Part shown: positions 39,336-50,717 of the stretch, one piece after another | Position numbering within the stretch: position 1 is the first letter of the stretch | Layout: every line of letters starts with the position of its first letter | The notes under the pieces: model-generated | Seen by the model: the letters and a program-made list of their open reading frames with translations, nothing else | Told to the model about the DNA's origin: nothing | Database searches by the model: none | Program-made: the position numbers and the translations under genes | Origin: Candidatus Woesearchaeota archaeon | GTDB taxonomy: Archaea; Nanobdellota; Nanobdellia; Woesearchaeales; UBA12501 | Assembly: GCA_030651375.1 (NCBI GenBank) | Contig: JAUSFM010000015.1 | Coordinates: 1-64,000, forward strand | Reading direction: 5' to 3' | Length of the DNA stretch: 64,000 nt

Positions 39336-40412
39336 TCACTGGTTCCACTCCAACTTATACCGCAGCAGCGCGGCGATGCCACCGAGGCCGTCAATCTTTT
39401 TGCCGCCGTCGTGGGATGAGCTGATAAGGTTGATGGTGGCTTTCATGTTCTCTGCGCTTCGAAGCACCGCGTCCACTTCGTCGTATTTTTTGTGCTCTTT
39501 GGCTGTTCTGATAAAATCTTCAGTGACGAGCACGGTTTCCACCGCACCCTGCGCAACGGCATTTTTTACATCACGGAATCCGTAGGTTACTTTTCCTTGC
39601 TTGCTAATCTCTTCGAGCACTTTTTCAGCCAGTGCAATTTCTTTTGCCACGCGGTCCTGTTTCAGCACGCTCATCACCTCAGGTCGCTTGATGACTTCAT
39701 TAAAAGCAGTTTCATCAACTGATGAGCAGGTCGCAAGCACGGTTTTGTGCTTGAGTTTTTCGTCGGTAATCCGCACGGCGAGTTCTTCTTTCCAGAATGC
39801 CGGGCTGGCAAGGATGATGCTGTCATACTTGTTTCGCTCATCGTATTCTTTAATCGCGTTGATGACTTCTCCATAAAATTCTTTTTTCGACTCGGTTGCC
39901 CCTGCGCCCGCGCCTGCTTTTTTAGCAACATCACCAGTCAGTTTCACGAGAAGCTGGTAGCCGAAATGTTTGAGCTGTGCAAGGTATGCTTCTTCCCGGT
40001 CAACGACACACAGGAGAATTTTTGGGCCGTGGTCCTCGGTTGCTTCCTTGAGCCGCTGCAGCTGAAACTGGTGCCATACTGGCTTGATGATGCTGACAAT
40101 AGTGTGCTCTTCAATAGCAAAAGTGTGGTGCGAGCCTCTGCTCACATCTTCAGGCCCTTCAATAATAATGCCATTGGCCCGAAGCGCATCGCCCTCAAGA
40201 CTTATTTTTTCCACCTTGATGCTAAGAAACACCGGCTTTTTGACCACTGCAGCATTCCGGTCAGTTTCGCCGCCTATTTTTATCTTGCGTAGCGTGGTGC
40301 CTGCAAGAATGTCTCCCTCGTCGATAACTGTGTTGAGGTACCAGAGGTCGTTGAGGTTGTCAACCTGTACCTTAACCGTACCCTGTTTGAGGTGAGAATG
40401 AATAATTTTCAT
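39336..40412 (-). CDS. pelA: Pelota, mRNA surveillance/ribosome rescue factor
   Basis: The 358-residue protein is a full archaeal Pelota (Dom34). The N-terminal Sm-like domain (LWYLNTVIDEGDILAGTTLRKIKIGG, LRANGIIIEGPEDVSRGSHH) is followed by the middle domain (ILLCVVDREEAYLAQLKHFG, SIILASPAFWKEEL) and the C-terminal L30e-like domain (KVTYGFRDVKNAVAQGAVETVLVTEDF). It splits stalled ribosomes with ABCE1 and lacks the GGQ release-factor motif, as expected. It is monocistronic. Confidence 0.94.
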   Translation of the reverse strand: MKIIHSHLKQGTVKVQVDNLNDLWYLNTVIDEGDILAGTTLRKIKIGGETDRNAAVVKKPVFLSIKVEKISLEGDALRANGIIIEGPEDVSRGSHHTFAIEEHTIVSIIKPVWHQFQLQRLKEATEDHGPKILLCVVDREEAYLAQLKHFGYQLLVKLTGDVAKKAGAGAGATESKKEFYGEVINAIKEYDERNKYDSIILASPAFWKEELAVRITDEKLKHKTVLATCSSVDETAFNEVIKRPEVMSVLKQDRVAKEIALAEKVLEEISKQGKVTYGFRDVKNAVAQGAVETVLVTEDFIRTAKEHKKYDEVDAVLRSAENMKATINLISSSHDGGKKIDGLGGIAALLRYKLEWNQ

Positions 40413-40588: not shown

Positions 40589-41776
40589 ATGGTCTTTGGG
40601 AAAAAAGAGGCAACTACAAAAAAAGCTCAGTCAACGGGCACCGGCGCAGCCGTGCTGATACTGCTCATTGCTGCGCTCATCATCATTTACATTCTCTTCC
40701 TGCCGCCGCAGGCGCGCCAGGAAATTCTCCAAGAGCAAGGCACCGGGCAAATCGGTTCTGGTGCGGGCTTTAAGGAGCTTCTCATCGAATCGCCGGGAAA
40801 AATTGAAGTGCTCCAGTCCGGCTCTGTCGAGCATAATCTTCCCGCGGTGAATCTCTTTAGTACCACACAGGCCGTGGTTATCAAGACCATTTCCAGTGTG
40901 TATACCAAGCATGGCTGGCTTGACAGCCAGTCTGCTAATGTCACTTTTGCCCTTGAAAATGTGGCGAGCACCGACAACGTGCTGTTGAGCTTTGCCCTGC
41001 GCACGACGCGCGGCCGGCTCATCATCAAGCTGAATGGCTATGAAATCTTCAACAGCGAACCCCGTCCAACAATGGAGCCCGTGCGCATTCCCCACGAGCT
41101 TCTCAAGGAATCAAACCTGCTTACGTTTGAAGCGTCAGAGGTCGGCTTCAAGTTCTGGACCACCAATGAGCACGAGCTTGAAAACCTCAAGCTCACTGCA
41201 GAAGTGACCGATGTTACCACGCAGGAAGCCAAGACCGTGTTCCACGTGACCACCACTGAAAAAGACAACATCAACCGCGTGTTCCTCAAGTTCATTCCCG
41301 AGTGCACCCAAGACAAGATTGGCGTACTGGATGTTTTCCTGAACAACCACAATGTCTTCTCCGCAGTGCCAGACTGTGGTGTGTTGCGGTCGATTGAGCT
41401 GGCGCCGGAATACCTCATCAGCGGCGAGAACGCGCTGCTGTTTAAGACAGCAAAAGGTGTGTATGTCATTGACCTCATTCAGGTGAAAGCACAGCTCAAA
41501 GAAATCAGTTATCCCTCCTATTATTTTGACATCAAGCCAGAAGTGTATGATGCTATTGTCCACGGCGGTGTGGTTGAGCTCACACTAGAATTTTCCAATG
41601 ATGTTGACCGGAAGTACGCCGACCTGTTTGTAAACGGCCATGCGCAGAGCATTGCAACAACGGCAAACAAGGCAGTCCTTCCAATTACTCCCTTTGTTGC
41701 TCCGGGCAACAATGTCGTTGAAATCCGGCCGCGCACAACGCTGGATGTGGCTAATCTCCGTGTTGTTGCACGATAG
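40589..41776 (+). CDS. membrane-anchored exoprotein of the surface block
   Basis: The 395-residue protein has a basic N-terminus (FGKKEATTKKAQS), one signal-anchor helix at about 19-39 (AAVLILLIAALIIIYILFL), and a 350-residue extracellular part rich in beta strands, with repeated galactose-binding-like patterns (LLSFALRTTRGRLIIKLNGYEIF; VFLKFIPECTQ; LDVFLNNHNVF). These look like three related jelly-roll repeats. It is first in a five-gene, same-strand block that continues with a lytic-transglycosylase-like protein and three lipoproteins. An AAGGTG ribosome-binding site and a TATA box (TTTATATAAA near 40541-40550) precede it. The family is unknown. Confidence 0.65.
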   Translation: MVFGKKEATTKKAQSTGTGAAVLILLIAALIIIYILFLPPQARQEILQEQGTGQIGSGAGFKELLIESPGKIEVLQSGSVEHNLPAVNLFSTTQAVVIKTISSVYTKHGWLDSQSANVTFALENVASTDNVLLSFALRTTRGRLIIKLNGYEIFNSEPRPTMEPVRIPHELLKESNLLTFEASEVGFKFWTTNEHELENLKLTAEVTDVTTQEAKTVFHVTTTEKDNINRVFLKFIPECTQDKIGVLDVFLNNHNVFSAVPDCGVLRSIELAPEYLISGENALLFKTAKGVYVIDLIQVKAQLKEISYPSYYFDIKPEVYDAIVHGGVVELTLEFSNDVDRKYADLFVNGHAQSIATTANKAVLPITPFVAPGNNVVEIRPRTTLDVANLRVVAR

Positions 41777-41849
41777 TTTGTCAACGATACTTTCCCGTAG
41801 TTCACGCAAAAAAGAGGAGGTCTTCTTCTGACCTCGTTCGAGGTTTTCC

Positions 41850-44417
41850 ATGGGTTTTCGCGACAAGGCACAGGCGGTCAAGGATTGGGCAACAACATAT
41901 AATCCGACTCGCGAGCGCCAGCAGTGGGAAAAAATAAAGACTGGAGTTAATCACGCCGGCGCCGGCATGGTCGGGCTTGCAGCGCGTTCGCGTGAATACA
42001 TTGCGCCGGTGGACATCAGCCCGATACGGTTCCTGTTATTTTTGCTCATTGCGCTTGCTGTTCATCTGGTGATTGAGACGCAAACGAGCAACATTTTTTC
42101 CGTTGAGCGAGTTGCAGGCCATCTGCTCATCGCGTTTATTCTCTGTCCGTTTCTTCTTGGGATTTCGCTGCGCGAGCGGTTTGAAGAACTGTTTACTGTT
42201 TTTTTGATTGCACTCTTTTTGCCCCTCATTTTTATGTGGATTTCAACCGGGCTTTCATGGGCAGGCCTTGATGTGCACGTCAGCATTTTTTCCTACCTCA
42301 CCAATCTTTTTTTTGTGCCGGTATGGATTTATTACGCAATATTCCAAGAGCATGTTGACCCGCGCTGGGGTTCCCATTCATTGAAAAACTTTTTTGGCAC
42401 GCTCATTCTACTGTTCTGGATCGCCATAATTCTCATCTCACTCATTCAGCATCTCCAAGACAACAATCTCGAGCAGAAATTCCAATGGGGTGACATTTCA
42501 GCGCAGTACAAGCAAACCGCAGCAGAGCGCGTGAAAGAGCTTCCGAGCATGTTCAAAACTGCTGCCGCCATCTTCGGCGGCAAAATCACTGAACTGTTCA
42601 AGCGGCCGATTCAATACGCTGTCGGCGATGATTATTTCATTGGCAACGTGGAAAAAAGCAAGGAAGAAAAAGTCGGCGTGTATCTCGAAAGTATGCGCGC
42701 TGCTGCGCCACAATTCTTTGAAGACGAGCCGGTTACCGTCTGGGGCATTCTCAAGGCCAAAACCCTGCAGCCCGACAAGATGATTCATGTGGTTACCGAA
42801 TGTGTTGCTATTCCTCTATCACCTGTTGCAGGGCTGCAAAACCGCATCATCGGCGATGCAAATCCGGAAAACCCATCATCCTTACAACTAGTTGCGGATG
42901 TTGCGAATTTTGAGCAGCTCGACCTTTCCTGTGAATTCCCACCAGGACTGCTGCAGCGCGGCTCGCGGAAAATCGGCTTCAACACAACCTTCAATTTCAA
43001 CACCGATGCATATCTAAAATCTTATTTCATGGATCAAGACCGGATGCGTTCGCTCGTGCGTGAAAATATCAATCCACTCACCCAGTATGGCATTACTGAT
43101 CCAACACCGATCGCGATATACACCAATGGTCCGGTCGGTATTGGCATGGAGACAACACGCACCGAAAACGGCGCACTGATTCCGGTCACGATCACGAATC
43201 TTTTCCGTCTTGGAATAACGATAGAAAACAAATGGGAAGGTCGCATTCAATCCGTGCGTAGTGTGCTCTTCCGCTTGCCTGCCGGCACTCATATCGTGGC
43301 AGATTCATGCGACTTTAACGTCGAGGAAGTTCCCTGTGCTCCCGACCTTCCGCTCTGCGGAGATATGGGTGCGGGCACGGACGCAACCGTGATCTATGCC
43401 GTCAGCCCCAGCTCACGTCGAGATCCCAGCGGCACGGTTGCAAAGAGGGGTTTGGATGTGGTCAACCGGCTGTTTGCAGGCGAACGGCGCAAGTACGTTT
43501 CCTTGACTTGTAAAATCAGTTTTGACAATGTCGAAGCAGTGCTCGGCAACACACCGCTTGCTACCCAGTACTTCAAAACGTCAGTTGCATACGATTATGT
43601 TCTTGAAAAATCCATTTCAATAACGCTCAAGCCGGTAAAAGATTTTCTGCCCGCAGCTCCGGACCATGGTGTGGTTGGTCCGGGAATTACTTCCGGCTTT
43701 GAACCCGAACCATACGAAGTGCCGAAATCAGAGGAGGACGCGCTGCGAAAAATCTGGCAGACCTACCACAACGATATTGCTGCAGCAAACCAACAGAGCG
43801 GTGTGCCAAAAGGGCTGATTATGGCGCTCATCGCTGCAGAAACAGGCGACACTAATCCCAACAAAATATCCACCACCGGTGCAGCAGGGCTGGGACAGTT
43901 TACCTATCAATCAAAATTCTTTTCCACCATCAGAAAATGTTGTGTGAAAGAAGCAAGCGAAAGTTCGCCGAATTACTGCGCCAACGAGCGTCAGCGCTGT
44001 GGCAATGATGCATGGTGCGCTATCGGCGGTTATTCATGTAGCCCTGACCAGAACGACCCACTCTACGACGACCGGTTTAATGCGCAGCATTCAATTTTTT
44101 CAATTGCCGAGCGCCTTGCAACTGACATTCGTACCTACAACAAATATGCTGCACGCATCGAATTTGCGCTGGTATCATACAATGCCGGCGGTGCCGTGGT
44201 CACTGCAGCAGTCAAGCAGACCGGCAGCGGCAATCCTTCATGGCCTGAAGTGTCTGCACAGATTACCCCCTCACTCATCCAGTCTTCCCACAAAACCTAC
44301 GCTAACTGGCAATGGGCTGCGCTTCAAGGAAAAGCACGTGAAATCAACAACTATGTTAAAAAAATAACCTCCTTGAGCGAAAAAGCAGAAGCAATTTCCG
44401 AAGGTGAAATTGCATGA
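41850..44417 (+). CDS. five-TM protein with extracellular lytic-transglycosylase (SLT-like) domain
   Basis: The 855-residue protein opens with a basic cytoplasmic segment and about five membrane helices (residues 50-205; FLLFLLIALAVHLVIE, FLIALFLPLIFMWIS, LILLFWIAIILISLIQ). An ectodomain of about 400 residues follows, then at about 635-830 a lysozyme-like SLT/Slt70-type domain: GVPKGLIMALIAAETGD with the probable catalytic Glu664, STTGAAGLGQFTY, a Cys-rich insert, and FALVSYNAGGAVV. Archaea lack murein, so the target is puzzling: it may be bacterial peptidoglycan, host glycan or the cell's own polymer. The next gene overlaps by four bases. Confidence 0.75.
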   Translation: MGFRDKAQAVKDWATTYNPTRERQQWEKIKTGVNHAGAGMVGLAARSREYIAPVDISPIRFLLFLLIALAVHLVIETQTSNIFSVERVAGHLLIAFILCPFLLGISLRERFEELFTVFLIALFLPLIFMWISTGLSWAGLDVHVSIFSYLTNLFFVPVWIYYAIFQEHVDPRWGSHSLKNFFGTLILLFWIAIILISLIQHLQDNNLEQKFQWGDISAQYKQTAAERVKELPSMFKTAAAIFGGKITELFKRPIQYAVGDDYFIGNVEKSKEEKVGVYLESMRAAAPQFFEDEPVTVWGILKAKTLQPDKMIHVVTECVAIPLSPVAGLQNRIIGDANPENPSSLQLVADVANFEQLDLSCEFPPGLLQRGSRKIGFNTTFNFNTDAYLKSYFMDQDRMRSLVRENINPLTQYGITDPTPIAIYTNGPVGIGMETTRTENGALIPVTITNLFRLGITIENKWEGRIQSVRSVLFRLPAGTHIVADSCDFNVEEVPCAPDLPLCGDMGAGTDATVIYAVSPSSRRDPSGTVAKRGLDVVNRLFAGERRKYVSLTCKISFDNVEAVLGNTPLATQYFKTSVAYDYVLEKSISITLKPVKDFLPAAPDHGVVGPGITSGFEPEPYEVPKSEEDALRKIWQTYHNDIAAANQQSGVPKGLIMALIAAETGDTNPNKISTTGAAGLGQFTYQSKFFSTIRKCCVKEASESSPNYCANERQRCGNDAWCAIGGYSCSPDQNDPLYDDRFNAQHSIFSIAERLATDIRTYNKYAARIEFALVSYNAGGAVVTAAVKQTGSGNPSWPEVSAQITPSLIQSSHKTYANWQWAALQGKAREINNYVKKITSLSEKAEAISEGEIA

Positions 44418-45427
44418 GCCGCCCCTTTTGTATCAGTATTGTCGGAATTTTTGCTCTTGTGCTCCTGCTGGCAGGATGCCAATCTCTTTTCAGCAGAGGC
44501 CAATCCGGTGTTGTTCCGCTTCCGGTGCACGTCGGAAAAACCGGACTTGAAATGAGTTTCCTTGAAAATCTTCCGCCTGCGCAGGCCTTTTCTTCAACTC
44601 CCACAACAGAATCAATTTTTCCGGTTGCCGTCAAACTCGCCAACAAGGGCGCTGCCGACATTATCGAAGGATACCTCTCTGTTGGGCTTGAAAAAGATTA
44701 CCTTGAGTTGAAGGACTGGAACATAGAAGGGCAGGAGGCGTTTCACGTCGGCACGAGCAGCGAAAACATCGCCTTTTCCCTTCCTGGCAGGTCGGCGCTT
44801 GATCCGGTTGGCGAGGAAGATGTCGTTGCGCTTAGTGTTAAAGCATTGCCGCTTGATACTCAATCCCAGACGCACACATCGACAATCATCATGACCGCGT
44901 GTTACCAGTACGAAACACTGTCGGCTGCCGAGGTATGCATTAACCCCGAACTATTTACCACCAAACCGATTGAAAAAATCTGCCAGCACGGCGTTACCAG
45001 CATACGCCAAGGCCAAGGAGCGCCGATTGCGATTACGGGCGTTGAAACAAAAATGCTTCCGGGCCCCGGCGTGAGCATACTACCTCAATTTTTGATTACC
45101 CTTGAAAATGTGGCGAAAGGCCAGGCGCTTAATCCGCGTTCAGTTGCGCAGGCGTGTTCCTCATTGCCGCTCACCCACGACGACTGGAACGTCCTTGCAC
45201 TCTCAGACCTTCGGTTTTCACGGTTTTCGCTGGCGCATGGTGATTTTGACTGCTCGCCTGCGCCGCTCCGCCTACGCGATGGAAAAGCTACCCTGCGCTG
45301 CACGCTTAAACCCAATCTCCTGCGCAAAGAGGAAGGCGCCTTCAAGACAACCCTGTTCATGGCGCTTGAGTACGGCTACACGTTTTCCGTTTCAAAAAAT
45401 ATTCAAATTGACAGAATTGTGCAATGA
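44414..45427 (+). CDS. surface lipoprotein 1 of the SLT block
   Basis: The 337-residue protein has a lipoprotein signal peptide ending LLLAGCQS (lipobox Cys at about residue 22). The mature part begins with a short module, KTGLEMSFLENLPP, followed by a CARDB/S-layer-like beta domain (FPVAVKLANKGAADIIEGYL) and conserved Cys pairs. The same module recurs in the next two genes, so the three are tandem paralogues. The start overlaps the SLT gene (ATGA), implying a coupled complex at the outer membrane face. Confidence 0.7.
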   Translation: MSRPFCISIVGIFALVLLLAGCQSLFSRGQSGVVPLPVHVGKTGLEMSFLENLPPAQAFSSTPTTESIFPVAVKLANKGAADIIEGYLSVGLEKDYLELKDWNIEGQEAFHVGTSSENIAFSLPGRSALDPVGEEDVVALSVKALPLDTQSQTHTSTIIMTACYQYETLSAAEVCINPELFTTKPIEKICQHGVTSIRQGQGAPIAITGVETKMLPGPGVSILPQFLITLENVAKGQALNPRSVAQACSSLPLTHDDWNVLALSDLRFSRFSLAHGDFDCSPAPLRLRDGKATLRCTLKPNLLRKEEGAFKTTLFMALEYGYTFSVSKNIQIDRIVQ

Positions 45428-45468
45428 CGTCACAACATTTAAATAACTGGAAACCAAAAATGGCACCT

Positions 45469-46452
45469 ATGTCAAAAAAGAGGATGCGTATACTCCCTAT
45501 TTTTTCTCTCTTCACGCTACTATTTGTTTCACTTTTTATTTCCAGTTGTTCATCATTAAACCAACGAGGCCGTGGTGTTGAAGACTTCAATTTTCATACC
45601 GGTACGCAGGGCATGGAACTGCGGTTTCTTCAGGGCAATCCTCCACAGCGGCTCTATGCAGGCGACCCGCTGAACGTGCTCGTCGAGTACGCCAACAAAG
45701 GTGCGTACCCGGTTGTTGACGGCAGGCTGTACCTGACTGGGTTTGACCGAGAATACCTGCGGTTCGACCGCGAAGAAGTAATTGGTTTCGGTGCTGAAGG
45801 AAAAAGCGCGCTCAATCCCGAAGGCATGATTTCAGAACTTGCCGAATTCAAAGATCCCGCAGTAAGCATGCCACCGGAAACCGACGCGTTTCGCCAAATC
45901 ATAAAAGCAACCGCCTGCTACAGCTACAAGACCTTTGCGTCACCCATGGTGTGCATTGACCCTGACCCGCTGAACATTGAGCCGGCAGACAAAGTATGCC
46001 TGGTGCAGAATGTGGGTATGAATTCCCAAGGCGCTCCGGTTGCGGTAAAATCAGTTGACGTTGATGCTGCGCGCGGCCGCGTCCAGTTCAAGATTACGGT
46101 GCAAAACGTGGGCGGTGGTACCGTGATTGAAAGCAGAAACGGCTACGTTCCCCTTGATCGGTGCCAAGCGTTGTTGTCCCGCGATGAAATCGACAAGGTT
46201 GAAATCCGCGCATTCCTCTCTCAAAATCAGGCGCTCGACTGTAAGCCTGCAGTGATTCGCCTTGTCAACGGCAAGGGATTTGCCTACTGCAGCTTTTCCG
46301 GCCTTGACCCGCGCGCTGATGCGTACATGACCGCGTTGAGCATTGAGCTTTCCTACGGCTACCGAAATTCCGTTGCAACAACAACTGATATTCTCAGCCT
46401 GCCCGGCAGCAATGACCGTTTGCTCCCAAGCCGGTATCTTTTCAGACGATAA
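45469..46452 (+). CDS. surface lipoprotein 2 of the SLT block
   Basis: The 327-residue protein is a paralogue of the preceding one: signal peptide with LFISSCSS (lipobox), then GTQGMELRFLQGNPP, VLVEYANKGAYPVVDGRLYL, a cysteine-bearing KATACYSYKTF segment and a second beta domain (RVQFKITVQNVGGGTVI). The frame is open to ATG 45424, which overlaps the previous stop by four bases. A TATA-like CATTTAAATAAC at about 45436-45447 favours ATG 45469 (or 45460) from an internal promoter. Both modes may operate. Confidence 0.7.
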   Translation: MSKKRMRILPIFSLFTLLFVSLFISSCSSLNQRGRGVEDFNFHTGTQGMELRFLQGNPPQRLYAGDPLNVLVEYANKGAYPVVDGRLYLTGFDREYLRFDREEVIGFGAEGKSALNPEGMISELAEFKDPAVSMPPETDAFRQIIKATACYSYKTFASPMVCIDPDPLNIEPADKVCLVQNVGMNSQGAPVAVKSVDVDAARGRVQFKITVQNVGGGTVIESRNGYVPLDRCQALLSRDEIDKVEIRAFLSQNQALDCKPAVIRLVNGKGFAYCSFSGLDPRADAYMTALSIELSYGYRNSVATTTDILSLPGSNDRLLPSRYLFRR

Positions 46453-46522
46453 CTTTGCGATAAATTTATAAATCCCTTTTCTTCTTGTTTCTTGTTGTGT
46501 ATCAAAGAAAGAGGTCTCAAAG

Positions 46523-47569
46523 ATGAAACACCCGCGCATGCCTGTTCTTGTTGTTCTTTTTGCTCTTCTTGCTTTTTCGCTCACCCTTGCCGGCTGTGCA
46601 GAGCAGAAGCAGGGTATTTCCACGTCTACGCCGTTTCTCGGCGGCACCAATGGGCTGCTTGTTTCCTTTGTGCGTGAAGCACCGCCCGAGTCAATTACTG
46701 ACGATGGCAAATACCCATTTGGCGTTGCGATCCAGCTTGAAAATGGCGGCGAAGCCGACGTGCCGTTTGGCGGCGGCTATGCAGAAATTGTCGGCATTAA
46801 CCCCGTTGATTTTGGCCTTCCGACCCAAGCGTACCTTCGCAGCCCACTCTTGAAAGAAGGAAAACTTTCAGGCGCCCGTAAAAACTTTGACGGCACCGTC
46901 ATTCCCGGCATGCAGACGGTTGTACAATTTCCCTTTGACCCATCAAAACAAATTTCCATGCTGAAATATCTTCCCAATCTTTATGGCAACACCAATGTAA
47001 ACGTCCGCGCGAATGTGTGCTATGATTACCGCACCAAAACAACCACAAAAATATGTGTCAAGCAAAACCTTCTGGCGATTGAGGAAAAACCACCATTGTG
47101 TCTGGTCAACGAGCCAAAGAATCCGCAGAACTCCGGTGCGCCCGTTCACATTACTGCGATGAGTGAAGCACCGATTGGTGAGGACAAAGTTCAGCTGACC
47201 TTTACGATTTCCCATGTTGGAGCCCCGACTGATTCATTCTTTGCCGTTGGCTCGGATTGTGACGACAGCATTACCAACCCACAGAAATACGTTGTCTTTG
47301 TCAATGTGACGTCTGATGTGAACGGGGCATTTGCTGACTGCTCAGGCCTTGAAGACCCTGCAGAAGGCGCAATTGTTGGCCCCAAGGGCGAGCGCCACGG
47401 CGGCTTTGTGCGGATGTACCGCGGCCAGCCGAGAACCGTCACCTGCACCATTGACCTGTCCCACGTCGAGAGCACGTTTGAAGAACTGTTTGAAGTTGAG
47501 CTCCTTTACCGCTATATGCAATCCATCGAGAAGCCGATGCTGATACGTGATGTGTCAGTTTCTAATTGA
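46523..47569 (+). CDS. surface lipoprotein 3 of the SLT block
   Basis: The 348-residue third paralogue has a signal peptide FSLTLAGCAEQ (lipobox Cys at about 24), then GTNGLLVSFVREAPP, FGVAIQLENGGEADVPFGGGY and a Cys-containing ANVCYDYRTKTTTKICVK, followed by a second beta domain (VQLTFTISHVGAP). It has its own TATA box (AATTTATAAATC at about 46463-46474) and a GAGG ribosome-binding site. The GGGYAE variant and fewer shared cysteines mark it as the most diverged copy. Confidence 0.7.
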   Translation: MKHPRMPVLVVLFALLAFSLTLAGCAEQKQGISTSTPFLGGTNGLLVSFVREAPPESITDDGKYPFGVAIQLENGGEADVPFGGGYAEIVGINPVDFGLPTQAYLRSPLLKEGKLSGARKNFDGTVIPGMQTVVQFPFDPSKQISMLKYLPNLYGNTNVNVRANVCYDYRTKTTTKICVKQNLLAIEEKPPLCLVNEPKNPQNSGAPVHITAMSEAPIGEDKVQLTFTISHVGAPTDSFFAVGSDCDDSITNPQKYVVFVNVTSDVNGAFADCSGLEDPAEGAIVGPKGERHGGFVRMYRGQPRTVTCTIDLSHVESTFEELFEVELLYRYMQSIEKPMLIRDVSVSN

Positions 47570-47587: not shown

Positions 47588-47617
47588 GCTTGTTTATTCT
47601 TTTCTTATTCTTTTTTA
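47588..47617 (+). terminator. T-rich terminator of the surface block
   Basis: TTGTTTATTCTTTTCTTATTCTTTTTT follows shortly after the last lipoprotein stop. The convergent racemase gene ends just beyond it. Confidence 0.45.
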
Positions 47618-48304
47618 AATTAACTGAACTATAGAAGCATCTTCTAATATCTGTATCGTATTTATTATTGGTATGTGTGCGTCTTGATTTGATATCAATC
47701 GGGGCAACTCCGTACATCCTAAAAGTATTCCTTCGGCTCCCCTGTTCTCAAGTTTTTCTATAATCGTTCTCATTTTTTCCTTATCATCCTCTCTAATTTT
47801 ATTATTGATTATTCTTAGAATACATTCACTTACAAACCGCTGATCAATTTCGTTTGGAGTTATTGACTCAATACCTCCTTTTTTGAGTTCAGTGGCATGA
47901 AGTCCAGATTGAATTGTTTTAGTAGAGCCAAGAATCCCTACTTTTGTACGTTTCATTTCTCTGCACTTTTTTGTTGTTTCTTCTACAATGCTCAAAATCG
48001 GCGCCCTTGATTTTTCTCTCAGTTCATCAATAAAGATATGAACTGTATTGCAGGGAATAACAATAAAATCTACATCTAACCTATTCGGGCGGTGTACTGA
48101 CTCCAGCAACAAATCTAAGTGTTCTTGAGATGGGCCTCCCTTAATCAGGCGTTCTTCTGCTTTCTGAGAAATTGGTAGATTATCGAGTACAATGTGTGGC
48201 TGTCTTTTTGTAAAGAGTTTGAACTTCCTATTTACATTAAGGCAAAACGTACATCCTGTTTCAGGCCCGAGTCCTCCAATAACTCCTAAGATTCTTTGTT
48301 TCAT
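47615..48304 (-). CDS. aspartate/glutamate racemase family protein
   Basis: The 229-residue protein shows both catalytic cysteine motifs of the Asp/Glu/hydantoin racemase superfamily: VIPCNTVHIF (near residue 81) and LLGCTELPRLI (near 193), with the N-terminal VIGGLGPETG phosphate-like loop. It is therefore probably an active amino-acid racemase (likely aspartate type, PLP-independent). ATG 48302-48304 overlaps the previous gene's stop as ATGA, so it is translationally coupled to the unknown gene upstream. The neighbours suggest a pathway using a D-amino acid. Confidence 0.8.
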   Translation of the reverse strand: MKQRILGVIGGLGPETGCTFCLNVNRKFKLFTKRQPHIVLDNLPISQKAEERLIKGGPSQEHLDLLLESVHRPNRLDVDFIVIPCNTVHIFIDELREKSRAPILSIVEETTKKCREMKRTKVGILGSTKTIQSGLHATELKKGGIESITPNEIDQRFVSECILRIINNKIREDDKEKMRTIIEKLENRGAEGILLGCTELPRLISNQDAHIPIINTIQILEDASIVQLI

Positions 48305-49161
48305 TTTGTACACCGGTCGAGTACCTGTTGCAGCCTGCTTGCGAGAGGACCTCGTTCTGTTTTCTCTACGGTCTTGTCGTAGAGCCTGATTACTTGGTTG
48401 AGAAATTTCTCGTATGGCTGTGTTGCTTGTTCACCAAATTGTTCGTGAGCTGAAGCTATTTTATTCGCGGCATTTTCATCTGGCTGAAGCATGACTCTTT
48501 CTCCAAGGTTGGTGCAAAAGTAGGGGGCAGCGCGAAGTCTTTTCGGATCAAACGTTCTGCCGGGCGTTACATAGATAAATCCTATTAGGTCATCAAACCG
48601 TCGTTGGAATTCTTTGTCAAATGACCGTTCGTCCGAGTTCTTGCTTCCGTTGAGTGCCCAACCAACTTTGAGATTTACCTGCTGTTCCTGATTGAACCAA
48701 CGCATATCAGTTAGTTCTCTTCTCATGTAGTCATGAGGTGCTTCTATTGTTCTAAGAATATCTCTGTAAGTTGGAGCTTGATCTATCTCTGAAGCTCGTG
48801 CTATGTGCCACCCAGAAAAGCCCATATTTTCTATGGCTCTTTGCAGTGTTTCTTGGTAGCGCCCTGCTAATTCATCGACCGAGTGAGCGTCAAAACCATT
48901 ACTGATTGCGTGAGTATCTGCGACGAGAATATGCTTCGGTACATCAAGTTGTTCTCCGCTAAGAACCATGCTCAAAATATCAATAGGCAAACCTGCACTA
49001 AGCAGGGGAACCCCATTACAGAGGCCAACACCAAAATAGAGTGTATGTGCCTCTGGTATGTCAGACATTCCAGCCAACGATGGCTGGGTCTCAACCAGGG
49101 GCTCTTGGGTGATAAATCGAGCTATATCTTCTTTGCTTCTGATGCGTGATTGGTTTTTCAT
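48301..49161 (-). CDS. unknown protein, possibly HUP-fold (class I aaRS/CDPS-like)
   Basis: The 286-residue soluble protein has a Rossmann-like start (LYFGVGLCNGVPLLSAGLPID) and a second strand with HILVADTHAISNGFDAH, followed by helices and GWHIARASEI. The order and the VAD-H motif recall the HUP core of class I tRNA synthetases and cyclodipeptide synthases, but the HIGH and KMSKS motifs are not evident; a TPGRTFDPKRLRA segment lies near residue 205. This is pattern reading only. It is co-transcribed with an amino-acid racemase and divergent from an Lrp-type regulator, which points to amino-acid metabolism or aminoacyl-tRNA use. Confidence 0.4.
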   Translation of the reverse strand: MKNQSRIRSKEDIARFITQEPLVETQPSLAGMSDIPEAHTLYFGVGLCNGVPLLSAGLPIDILSMVLSGEQLDVPKHILVADTHAISNGFDAHSVDELAGRYQETLQRAIENMGFSGWHIARASEIDQAPTYRDILRTIEAPHDYMRRELTDMRWFNQEQQVNLKVGWALNGSKNSDERSFDKEFQRRFDDLIGFIYVTPGRTFDPKRLRAAPYFCTNLGERVMLQPDENAANKIASAHEQFGEQATQPYEKFLNQVIRLYDKTVEKTERGPLASRLQQVLDRCTK

Positions 49162-49739: not shown

Positions 49740-50717
49740 TTATATCTTCTTATCCATCATATCTCCCGCCAGCGCAACCTTCGCCAACAGGGCTTCGAGC
49801 TGAATCACATCATCGCTTCCTTCGCTGATGCGGAACTCCGCTTCGCCGCATTCGGCAATGAGTTGCATTTTTTTCCGGTCATCGACTGGTAAGGCAAGAA
49901 TTTCTTTTTGTATCTGCTTCACAATATCCAGCCCGCTTAATCCATAATCAAGCATCACCTTAAGCAGTTGTTTCCGAGCTTCAACAAATTTTCCGGCAAG
50001 TGCGTGTTCGAGCACTTCTTTTAGCTGCGCCGGCTTTGCGTACGAGGCAATAGAATACACCATGTCCTCATCAATTTTTTCGCCCATGGCGGCGCAGCTT
50101 TGGAGAATATTCGCAACCCGCCGGACATCCCCTTCAGCAACTGTTACAATAGCTGTGCTTGCTTCAGGGGTGACCGTGAGTTTCTCGCGCGCTGCAATGC
50201 CGATGATAATCTCTTTGATATCCTCTGGCTTGAGCGGCTTGAACCTGAATACTGCACATCGGCTTTGCACGGGCTCAATAATTTTTGACGAGTAATTACA
50301 GCTGAGAATAAACCGCGTTGTCTGCGTATAATTTTCCATGGTTCTACGCAGTGCCTGCTGTGCCTCCCGTGTCAGGGCGTCGCATTCGTCGAGATAAATA
50401 ATCTTGAATGGCACATCACCAATCGCTTTTGTGCGCGCAAAATCCTTGACCTTGTGCCGCACGACGTCTATGCCGCGCTCGTCGCTTGCGTTCAGCTCGA
50501 GAAAATTATTTCGCCATTCCTCACCAAACATCTTTCTTGCTATGACAAGCGATAGTGTCGTTTTTCCGACGCCGGGCGGCCCAGCAAAGAGCAGGTGCGG
50601 AAGGTTTTTCTGCTCGACCAGCAGCCGTATTTTAGAAACAATCTCCTGCTGGCCATGAATTTCATCAAACGTACCCGGGCGATATTTCTCAGTCCAAATA
50701 GCATAGGTCTCATCCAT
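49740..50717 (-). CDS. rfcS: replication factor C small subunit
   Basis: The 325-residue AAA+ protein is the clamp-loader small subunit: RFC boxes IWTEKYRPGTF, LLFAGPPGVGKTTLSLVIAR (Walker A), IIYLDECDAL (Walker B), FILSCNYSSKIIEPVQSRCAVFRF (sensor 1 and SRC), then the helical collar. It loads PCNA at primer ends. No intein is present. The large subunit is not in the window. A PRC-barrel gene lies 23 bases upstream on the same strand. Confidence 0.95.
   Translation of the reverse strand: MDETYAIWTEKYRPGTFDEIHGQQEIVSKIRLLVEQKNLPHLLFAGPPGVGKTTLSLVIARKMFGEEWRNNFLELNASDERGIDVVRHKVKDFARTKAIGDVPFKIIYLDECDALTREAQQALRRTMENYTQTTRFILSCNYSSKIIEPVQSRCAVFRFKPLKPEDIKEIIIGIAAREKLTVTPEASTAIVTVAEGDVRRVANILQSCAAMGEKIDEDMVYSIASYAKPAQLKEVLEHALAGKFVEARKQLLKVMLDYGLSGLDIVKQIQKEILALPVDDRKKMQLIAECGEAEFRISEGSDDVIQLEALLAKVALAGDMMDKKI

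Follow-up and report, generated by a model that had tools for sequence, protein, structure and literature searches.

A conserved five-gene surface cassette of Woesearchaeota and related archaea with an exchangeable, predicted murein-cutting tip

What would a lytic transglycosylase-like enzyme do at the surface of an archaeon, and do the genes that surround it belong with it? Both questions are raised by a block of five genes, A–E, carried on contig C15 of a genome of ~1.3 Mb distributed over 23 contigs. The source organism is a Woesearchaeota-type DPANN archaeon, tiny and probably symbiotic, and a narrow search with gene A returns matches named as Candidatus Woesearchaeota and Nanoarchaeota MAGs. 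The window, i.e. the whole stretch of DNA analysed, spans 64,000 nucleotides. As originally predicted, all five open reading frames are present on the + strand, and ATGA overlaps are found at two junctions (B/C and C/D). The features of the block and its conserved neighbours, in window coordinates, are as follows.

40589..41776, + strand: gene A, 395 aa; single-TM protein with a pilin-type N-terminus, a long ectodomain and two invariant Cys
40619..40630, + strand: KKAQ in gene A, directly before the TM; putative class III signal of the prepilin-peptidase type
41850..44417, + strand: gene B, 855 aa; polytopic membrane anchor followed by a conserved ectodomain core and an exchangeable C-terminal putative murein hydrolase
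42015..42461, + strand: five predicted TM segments of B (residues ~56-204)
42537..43640, + strand: ectodomain core conserved among B orthologues (residues ~230-597), with invariant Cys at 318, 361, 487 and 554
43641..44414, + strand: variable C-terminal tail of B, bearing the SLT domain in the source genome
43776..44192, + strand: SLT/GH23 lytic transglycosylase domain of B (predicted); Glu664, GAAGLGQF, SYNAGG and a Cys-rich insert
44414..45427, + strand: gene C, 337 aa; lipoprotein, paralogue of D and E
45424..46452, + strand: gene D, 342 aa; lipoprotein, paralogue of C and E
46523..47569, + strand: gene E, 348 aa; lipoprotein, more distantly paralogous to C and D
39336..40412, - strand: pelota (eRF1-like), conserved upstream neighbour, outside the complex
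49740..50717, - strand: replication factor C small subunit (rfcS; sequence-based name), conserved downstream neighbour, outside the complex

An Asp/Glu racemase family gene (47615-48313, - strand) lies immediately 3' of the cassette, and relatives have a different gene at this place.

The A-B-C/D/E arrangement recurs across the taxonomic order. B has matches in 42 of the 60 relatives searched (in L043, L047 and L049 through the SLT domain only), and the loci compared come from these B-matching relatives and from 20 further genomes of the order. Among the 58 loci from within the order, which include 11 clipped downstream and 8 clipped upstream by contig ends, gene A precedes B in 44, two or more C/D/E genes follow B in 50, pelota is upstream in 40, and rfcS is downstream in 36. 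The full A-B-C-D-E order between pelota and rfcS is kept in dozens of genera, and the flanks of the block in relatives consist of pelota on the upstream side and of rfcS with PRC-barrel genes on the downstream side, all on the opposite strand. Given this synteny across genera, a mobile element is rejected, and the recurrence of the A-B-C/D/E order exceeds chance. Across the class, a profile of the B core finds matches in 119 of 281 genomes. Sister orders have a shorter A-B-C-D form (i.e. A-B-C/D/E-C/D/E) that retains the gene order in different surroundings, and their B proteins are short, mostly ~400-490 aa with one TM, and stop at or near the core. Within the order, at least ~15 genomes of one family (f55; G125, G143, G166, and others) have no clear B-core match; this absence may represent a lineage loss, one that could be compared with lifestyle.

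The predicted architecture of B agrees with what was proposed from the source DNA. Its hydrophobic segments begin near residues 56, 88, 114, 142, and 181, i.e. a five-TM protein, and the SLT-type residues lie where they were placed (Glu664, GAAGLGQF at 677, and SYNAGG at 776). The tail scores 32.7 bits against the Pfam SLT profile, with a curated cut-off of 21.3, and a profile built from six B tails finds solved lytic transglycosylases (MltC, Slt70, MltE, and MltF) as well as goose lysozyme, with a best E-value of 1.3e-12 (MltC). The catalytic Glu and the (A/S)YN motif are invariant in these six tails. The SLT tip of B is an active-looking murein hydrolase and a predicted lytic transglycosylase. 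Neither of the two outcomes originally named as refuting has been seen: the genes stay together in relatives, and at the profile level the SLT domain is strongly homologous to solved lytic transglycosylases. The core has no match to a Pfam family and no credible solved relative; PDB profile matches to presenilin and the acetylcholine receptor cover TM segments only and are judged to be chance. A relationship between the B core and C/D/E, raised by their similar C-terminal ends, finds no support in hhalign (probability 2.4%). Predicted TM counts of B proteins are mostly odd, and because odd numbers prevail and the Cys residues are conserved, the C-terminus of B is likely to be outside the cell.

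The B core can be aligned across its length among orthologues, whereas the C-terminal tail differs. The only enzymatic Pfam domains in B tails come from 6 unrelated murein hydrolase families, namely SLT, GH73 glucosaminidase, Amidase_2, M23, M15, and NlpC/P60. In a first set of loci, SLT exceeds the Pfam cut-off in the source genome, L031, L051, L058, L066, and L069, and the other enzymes are Peptidase_M15_4 in L039, Amidase_2 in L064, Glucosaminidase in L067, and Peptidase_M23 in L068. A second set adds NLPC_P60 in L115, SLT in L117 and L124, and Glucosaminidase in L129, with the tail of L125 scoring slightly under the Pfam cut-off for SLT. By eye, the M23, M15, Amidase_2, and GH73 tails retain their usual metal-binding or catalytic residues. 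The remaining assigned tail domains are fn3 and PKD only, and a Pfam search of 38 B proteins finds no wall-binding domain, the source-genome B having SLT alone. Contamination or an assembly chimaera as the origin of the tip is rejected, given that tail and core share one open frame with the next gene directly after.

B has a conserved membrane and ectodomain core and an outward-facing C-terminus that is exchanged from one lineage to another. When the tail types are mapped on a tree of 58 B cores, 25 changes are required, compared with 29.6 when labels are shuffled, a count in which L052 is wrongly scored as 'none' owing to a B clipped by a contig end (a B fragment of the same genome, on C109, has SLT). 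Tail types thus seem scattered over the tree and barely track the core, with the number of swaps uncertain and the tree weakly resolved. About half of the B proteins of the order have no recognisable hydrolase, and several of the genomes concerned are without any SLT, which argues that wall cutting is not the sole role and that the scaffold has a further one. Some of these enzyme-less tails resemble a divergent SLT by eye.

The exchange of tips bears on what B would cut. The six hydrolase families differ in fold and in the bonds they attack: SLT and GH73 act on glycan strands, Amidase_2 on the MurNAc-L-Ala bond, and M23, M15, and NlpC/P60 on stem peptides and cross-links. To our knowledge, peptidoglycan alone contains all of these bonds, and we know of no other polymer that offers bonds for amidases, for D-Ala-D-Ala/M15, M23, and NlpC/P60 peptidases, and for glycosidases. 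Pseudomurein has neither MurNAc nor D-amino acids, and chitin has no peptide. The original prediction left three readings side by side, i.e. a device for attack on a host or prey, a conduit through the wall of a partner, or an enzyme for a different surface glycan. The last of these is unlikely because only peptidoglycan has every bond that the six families cut, and because murein-specific peptidases and amidases take the place of SLT in other lineages. The first two gain support, since unrelated murein hydrolases alternate at one position on B and no murein-synthesis pathway is found in the source genome, where MraY is absent and the sole Mur-ligase match resembles FolC and was rejected as a sign of own murein synthesis. 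We infer that the target of the B tip is bacterial murein.

The source genome also encodes a class A penicillin-binding protein (PBP), which leaves a low probability that the archaeon has some connection with its own murein. This gene (Transgly and Transpeptidase domains) is beside a divergent SLT gene with a Tat signal (the two genes together: L165:25-2403 and L166:17183-18139, contig C3:117183-120449); no murein precursor genes were found in the genome. Further matches to the GT51 domain are seen in G002, G014, G019, and G057, and overall GT51 occurs in only 6 of the 60 relatives. Tat-like N-termini are present on other murein hydrolases of the source genome as well, i.e. an M23 peptidase (by Pfam) and an SLT protein (L168:14047-14763 and L169:9247-10260).

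The N-termini of the partner proteins suggest how these may reach the surface. The motif [KR][AGS][QDE] stands right before the single TM in 50 of 56 A orthologues; elsewhere it is found in 3 of 142 C/D/E proteins and in 16 (mostly pilin-like) of 199 further proteins that have an N-terminal TM. By sequence it corresponds to the class III signal known from archaeal pilins, minus the usual Glu at +5. The A ectodomain is beta-rich by appearance. Searches of Pfam and the PDB return no match for gene A, and homology of A to C/D/E is unsupported by hhalign. Prepilin peptidase (Peptidase_A24) is present in the source genome and in 57 of the 60 relatives, including genomes without T2SSF. The suspected kinship of the three lipoproteins is borne out, with E-values of 1.8e-31 for C-D and 4e-11 for D-E and a GxxGxxxxFxxxxPP module common to C, D, and E. 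The family has no match to a Pfam family and no credible solved relative, and 158 of its 189 members carry a lipobox near the N-terminus. The source archaeon encodes a bacterial-type lipoprotein signal peptidase II (Peptidase_A8; L168:3549-4043).

A link with pili or secretion genes, which had been suggested as a further line of evidence, is found in part: a pilin-like operon is present, but canonical pilus assembly is absent in the source genome. Specifically, the T2SSF pilus platform has no match there, with positive controls, and is missing from 13 other relatives, so a canonical type IV pilus is rejected for the source genome. In two sister-order loci (L146 and L150), the order along one strand is a series of pilin-like genes, then B and the C/D/E genes, then an RPA gene, and in a third (L138) the cassette is a few genes away from the pilin-like operon. 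In Woesearchaeota, including the source genome, this operon is separate from the cassette and adjoins RPA; long operons of pilin-like proteins with class III signals are seen upstream of RPA in L179 (source genome, contig C6), in L180-L183, and in L043, L047, and L049. The short pilin-like proteins of cassette-linked and stand-alone operons have weak homology, and their shared synteny with RPA argues more strongly for relating the two groups. The operon also occurs in genomes without the T2SSF platform. Beyond its link with the cassette in these few sister-order genomes, no adhesin or secretion genes linked to the cassette were found, and A-E themselves (cassette only) have no match to a VirB4/VirD4-type ATPase.

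The last, variable subunit of the Woesearchaeota pilin-like operon often bears SLT (L043, L047, and L049), and the SLT matches in G006, G015, G020, and G022 coincide with this subunit. The 60 relatives encode ~60 SLT proteins, of which ~7 are B and ~7 occupy the final position of the pilin-like operon; by a rough hand count, this is far above chance for 2 of more than 1000 gene positions. Elsewhere, L170 has two pairs (L170:5273-9941 and L170:10505-19901) in which a protein with a class III signal (KKAQISMYL and KKGQISLFI, respectively) is followed by a giant protein, one of 1179 aa with a weak SLT match and the other of more than 2792 aa.

Taken together, we lean towards the view that A-E form a membrane-anchored, outward-facing contact complex whose murein-cutting tip is directed at bacteria. 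In such a complex, prepilin peptidase would trim A, and signal peptidase II and lipidation would position C, D, and E. B would span the membrane with its C-terminus outside, C, D, and E would assemble around it outside the cell, and A-E together would form a stalk or collar keeping the tip off the membrane. The tip, here a predicted lytic transglycosylase, would cut the peptidoglycan of a bacterium touching the archaeal cell, and the purpose at cell contact may be to attach, to gain access, or to feed. Over time the tip would have been repeatedly exchanged for other murein hydrolases or lost, with the scaffold staying. That the five proteins sit in one complex, and that cutting takes place at cell contact, we infer from the evidence above. 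A wider version is more tentative, and we consider it rather doubtful: a class-wide DPANN contact apparatus made of the pilin-type operon and A-E, with exchangeable murein-cutting tips at both loci, that opens the walls of bacterial hosts or prey and would be a machine for piercing walls with no relation to known secretion systems.

Other explanations share parts of this evidence. The tip could belong to a surface-bound antibacterial weapon that kills or repels competing bacteria, and neither a conduit nor a symbiosis would be involved. Experiments have shown bacteria to be killed by archaeal peptidoglycan hydrolases, with Nanoarchaeota rich in homologues (PMC12352652), and the patchy, quickly exchanged tips are what an arms race might produce. 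However, the enzyme is not secreted but fixed to a conserved multi-gene membrane system, many complexes are without it, and none of the wall-binding domains that the surveyed hydrolases have by design of that survey is found in B; we therefore regard a weapon as unlikely. A general surface or secretion machine, in which A-E work together with the class III pilin-like operon in adhesion, in DNA uptake, or in protein export and the hydrolase tip is a dispensable part comparable to VirB1 of conjugation systems, would account for the hydrolase-less cassettes of sister orders and of about half of the order, for the linked pilin-like operon of L138, L146, and L150, and for adhesive Fn3 and PKD tails. 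It is a still less probable explanation, as the cassette has no ATPase or channel, the pilus platform is absent in the source genome and 13 other relatives, and VirB1-type enzymes open the wall of their own producer, which the source cell appears not to have.

A last idea is that the hydrolases act on the envelope of the archaeon itself, e.g. on a residual or borrowed murein layer. The class A PBP beside the Tat-SLT gene, and the GT51 genes of other relatives, speak for such a layer. Against it, MraY is not found, the Mur ligase is FolC-like only, and GT51, in 6 of 60 relatives, is rarer than the hydrolase tips, making action on the own envelope highly improbable. The contact complex aimed at bacteria thus remains the reading we prefer.

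SLT proteins and their possible use against bacteria are already known in these archaea. Castelle et al. 2021 (PMC8204110) describe fam00969, a family of large extracellular proteins with SLT domains from Pacearchaeota and Woesearchaeota, and Vigneron et al. 2022 (PMC9723730) report GH23 genes in 'vampiristic' Woesearchaeota, both proposing bacteria as targets. As far as the relevant parts of these papers go, their proteins are like B in having SLT/GH23 on an extracellular protein in the same archaeal groups (fam00969 being compared by its description only), and neither describes A-E and their synteny, a pilin-type partner with lipoproteins, or an exchange among six hydrolase families. The archaeal modular peptidoglycan hydrolases of PMC12352652 combine a catalytic and a wall-binding domain, and about one-third have signal peptides for secretion. 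They share with the B system archaeal murein hydrolases, a prominence of Nanoarchaeota, and domain shuffling; B differs in that no wall-binding domain is found and in being anchored by a conserved multi-gene system.

Similarities to other delivery systems are also partial. Phage tail-associated lysins (PMC10194240) are described, in the part of that source drawn on here, as a conserved delivery structure with exchangeable murein-cutting domains of several families; A-E resemble them, and VirB1-type lytic transglycosylases, in joining a conserved scaffold to such domains. However, nothing in A, the B core, or C/D/E matches the Pfam families or solved structures of those systems, and the cassette has no ATPase, tape-measure, or channel protein. 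A shares the class III signal motif with subunits of archaeal type IV pili and archaella, with a prepilin peptidase present and a pilin-like operon linked in sister orders. It differs from these subunits in its length of 395 aa and its missing +5 Glu, the cassette differs in the absence of T2SSF from the source genome, and the lipoproteins C/D/E and polytopic B have no counterpart among pilus parts. No family was found to which the proposed A-E complex belongs. Our literature search found no description of the cassette, its class-wide spread, its pilin-type partner, or a six-family hydrolase exchange on one anchor, and no paper documenting attachment of Woesearchaeota to bacterial cells.

The question whether bacteria, rather than other archaea, are what Woesearchaeota and their relatives live on has so far rested on scattered SLT genes. 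The cassette provides a defined and conserved set of surface proteins that can be labelled, expressed, and assayed, and its signature, the exchange of six unrelated murein hydrolase families on a single scaffold, is specific for bacterial walls. Its interchangeable archaeal murein hydrolases are also material for biochemistry. The presence of the cassette suggests that the archaea carrying it touch, open, or attack bacteria.
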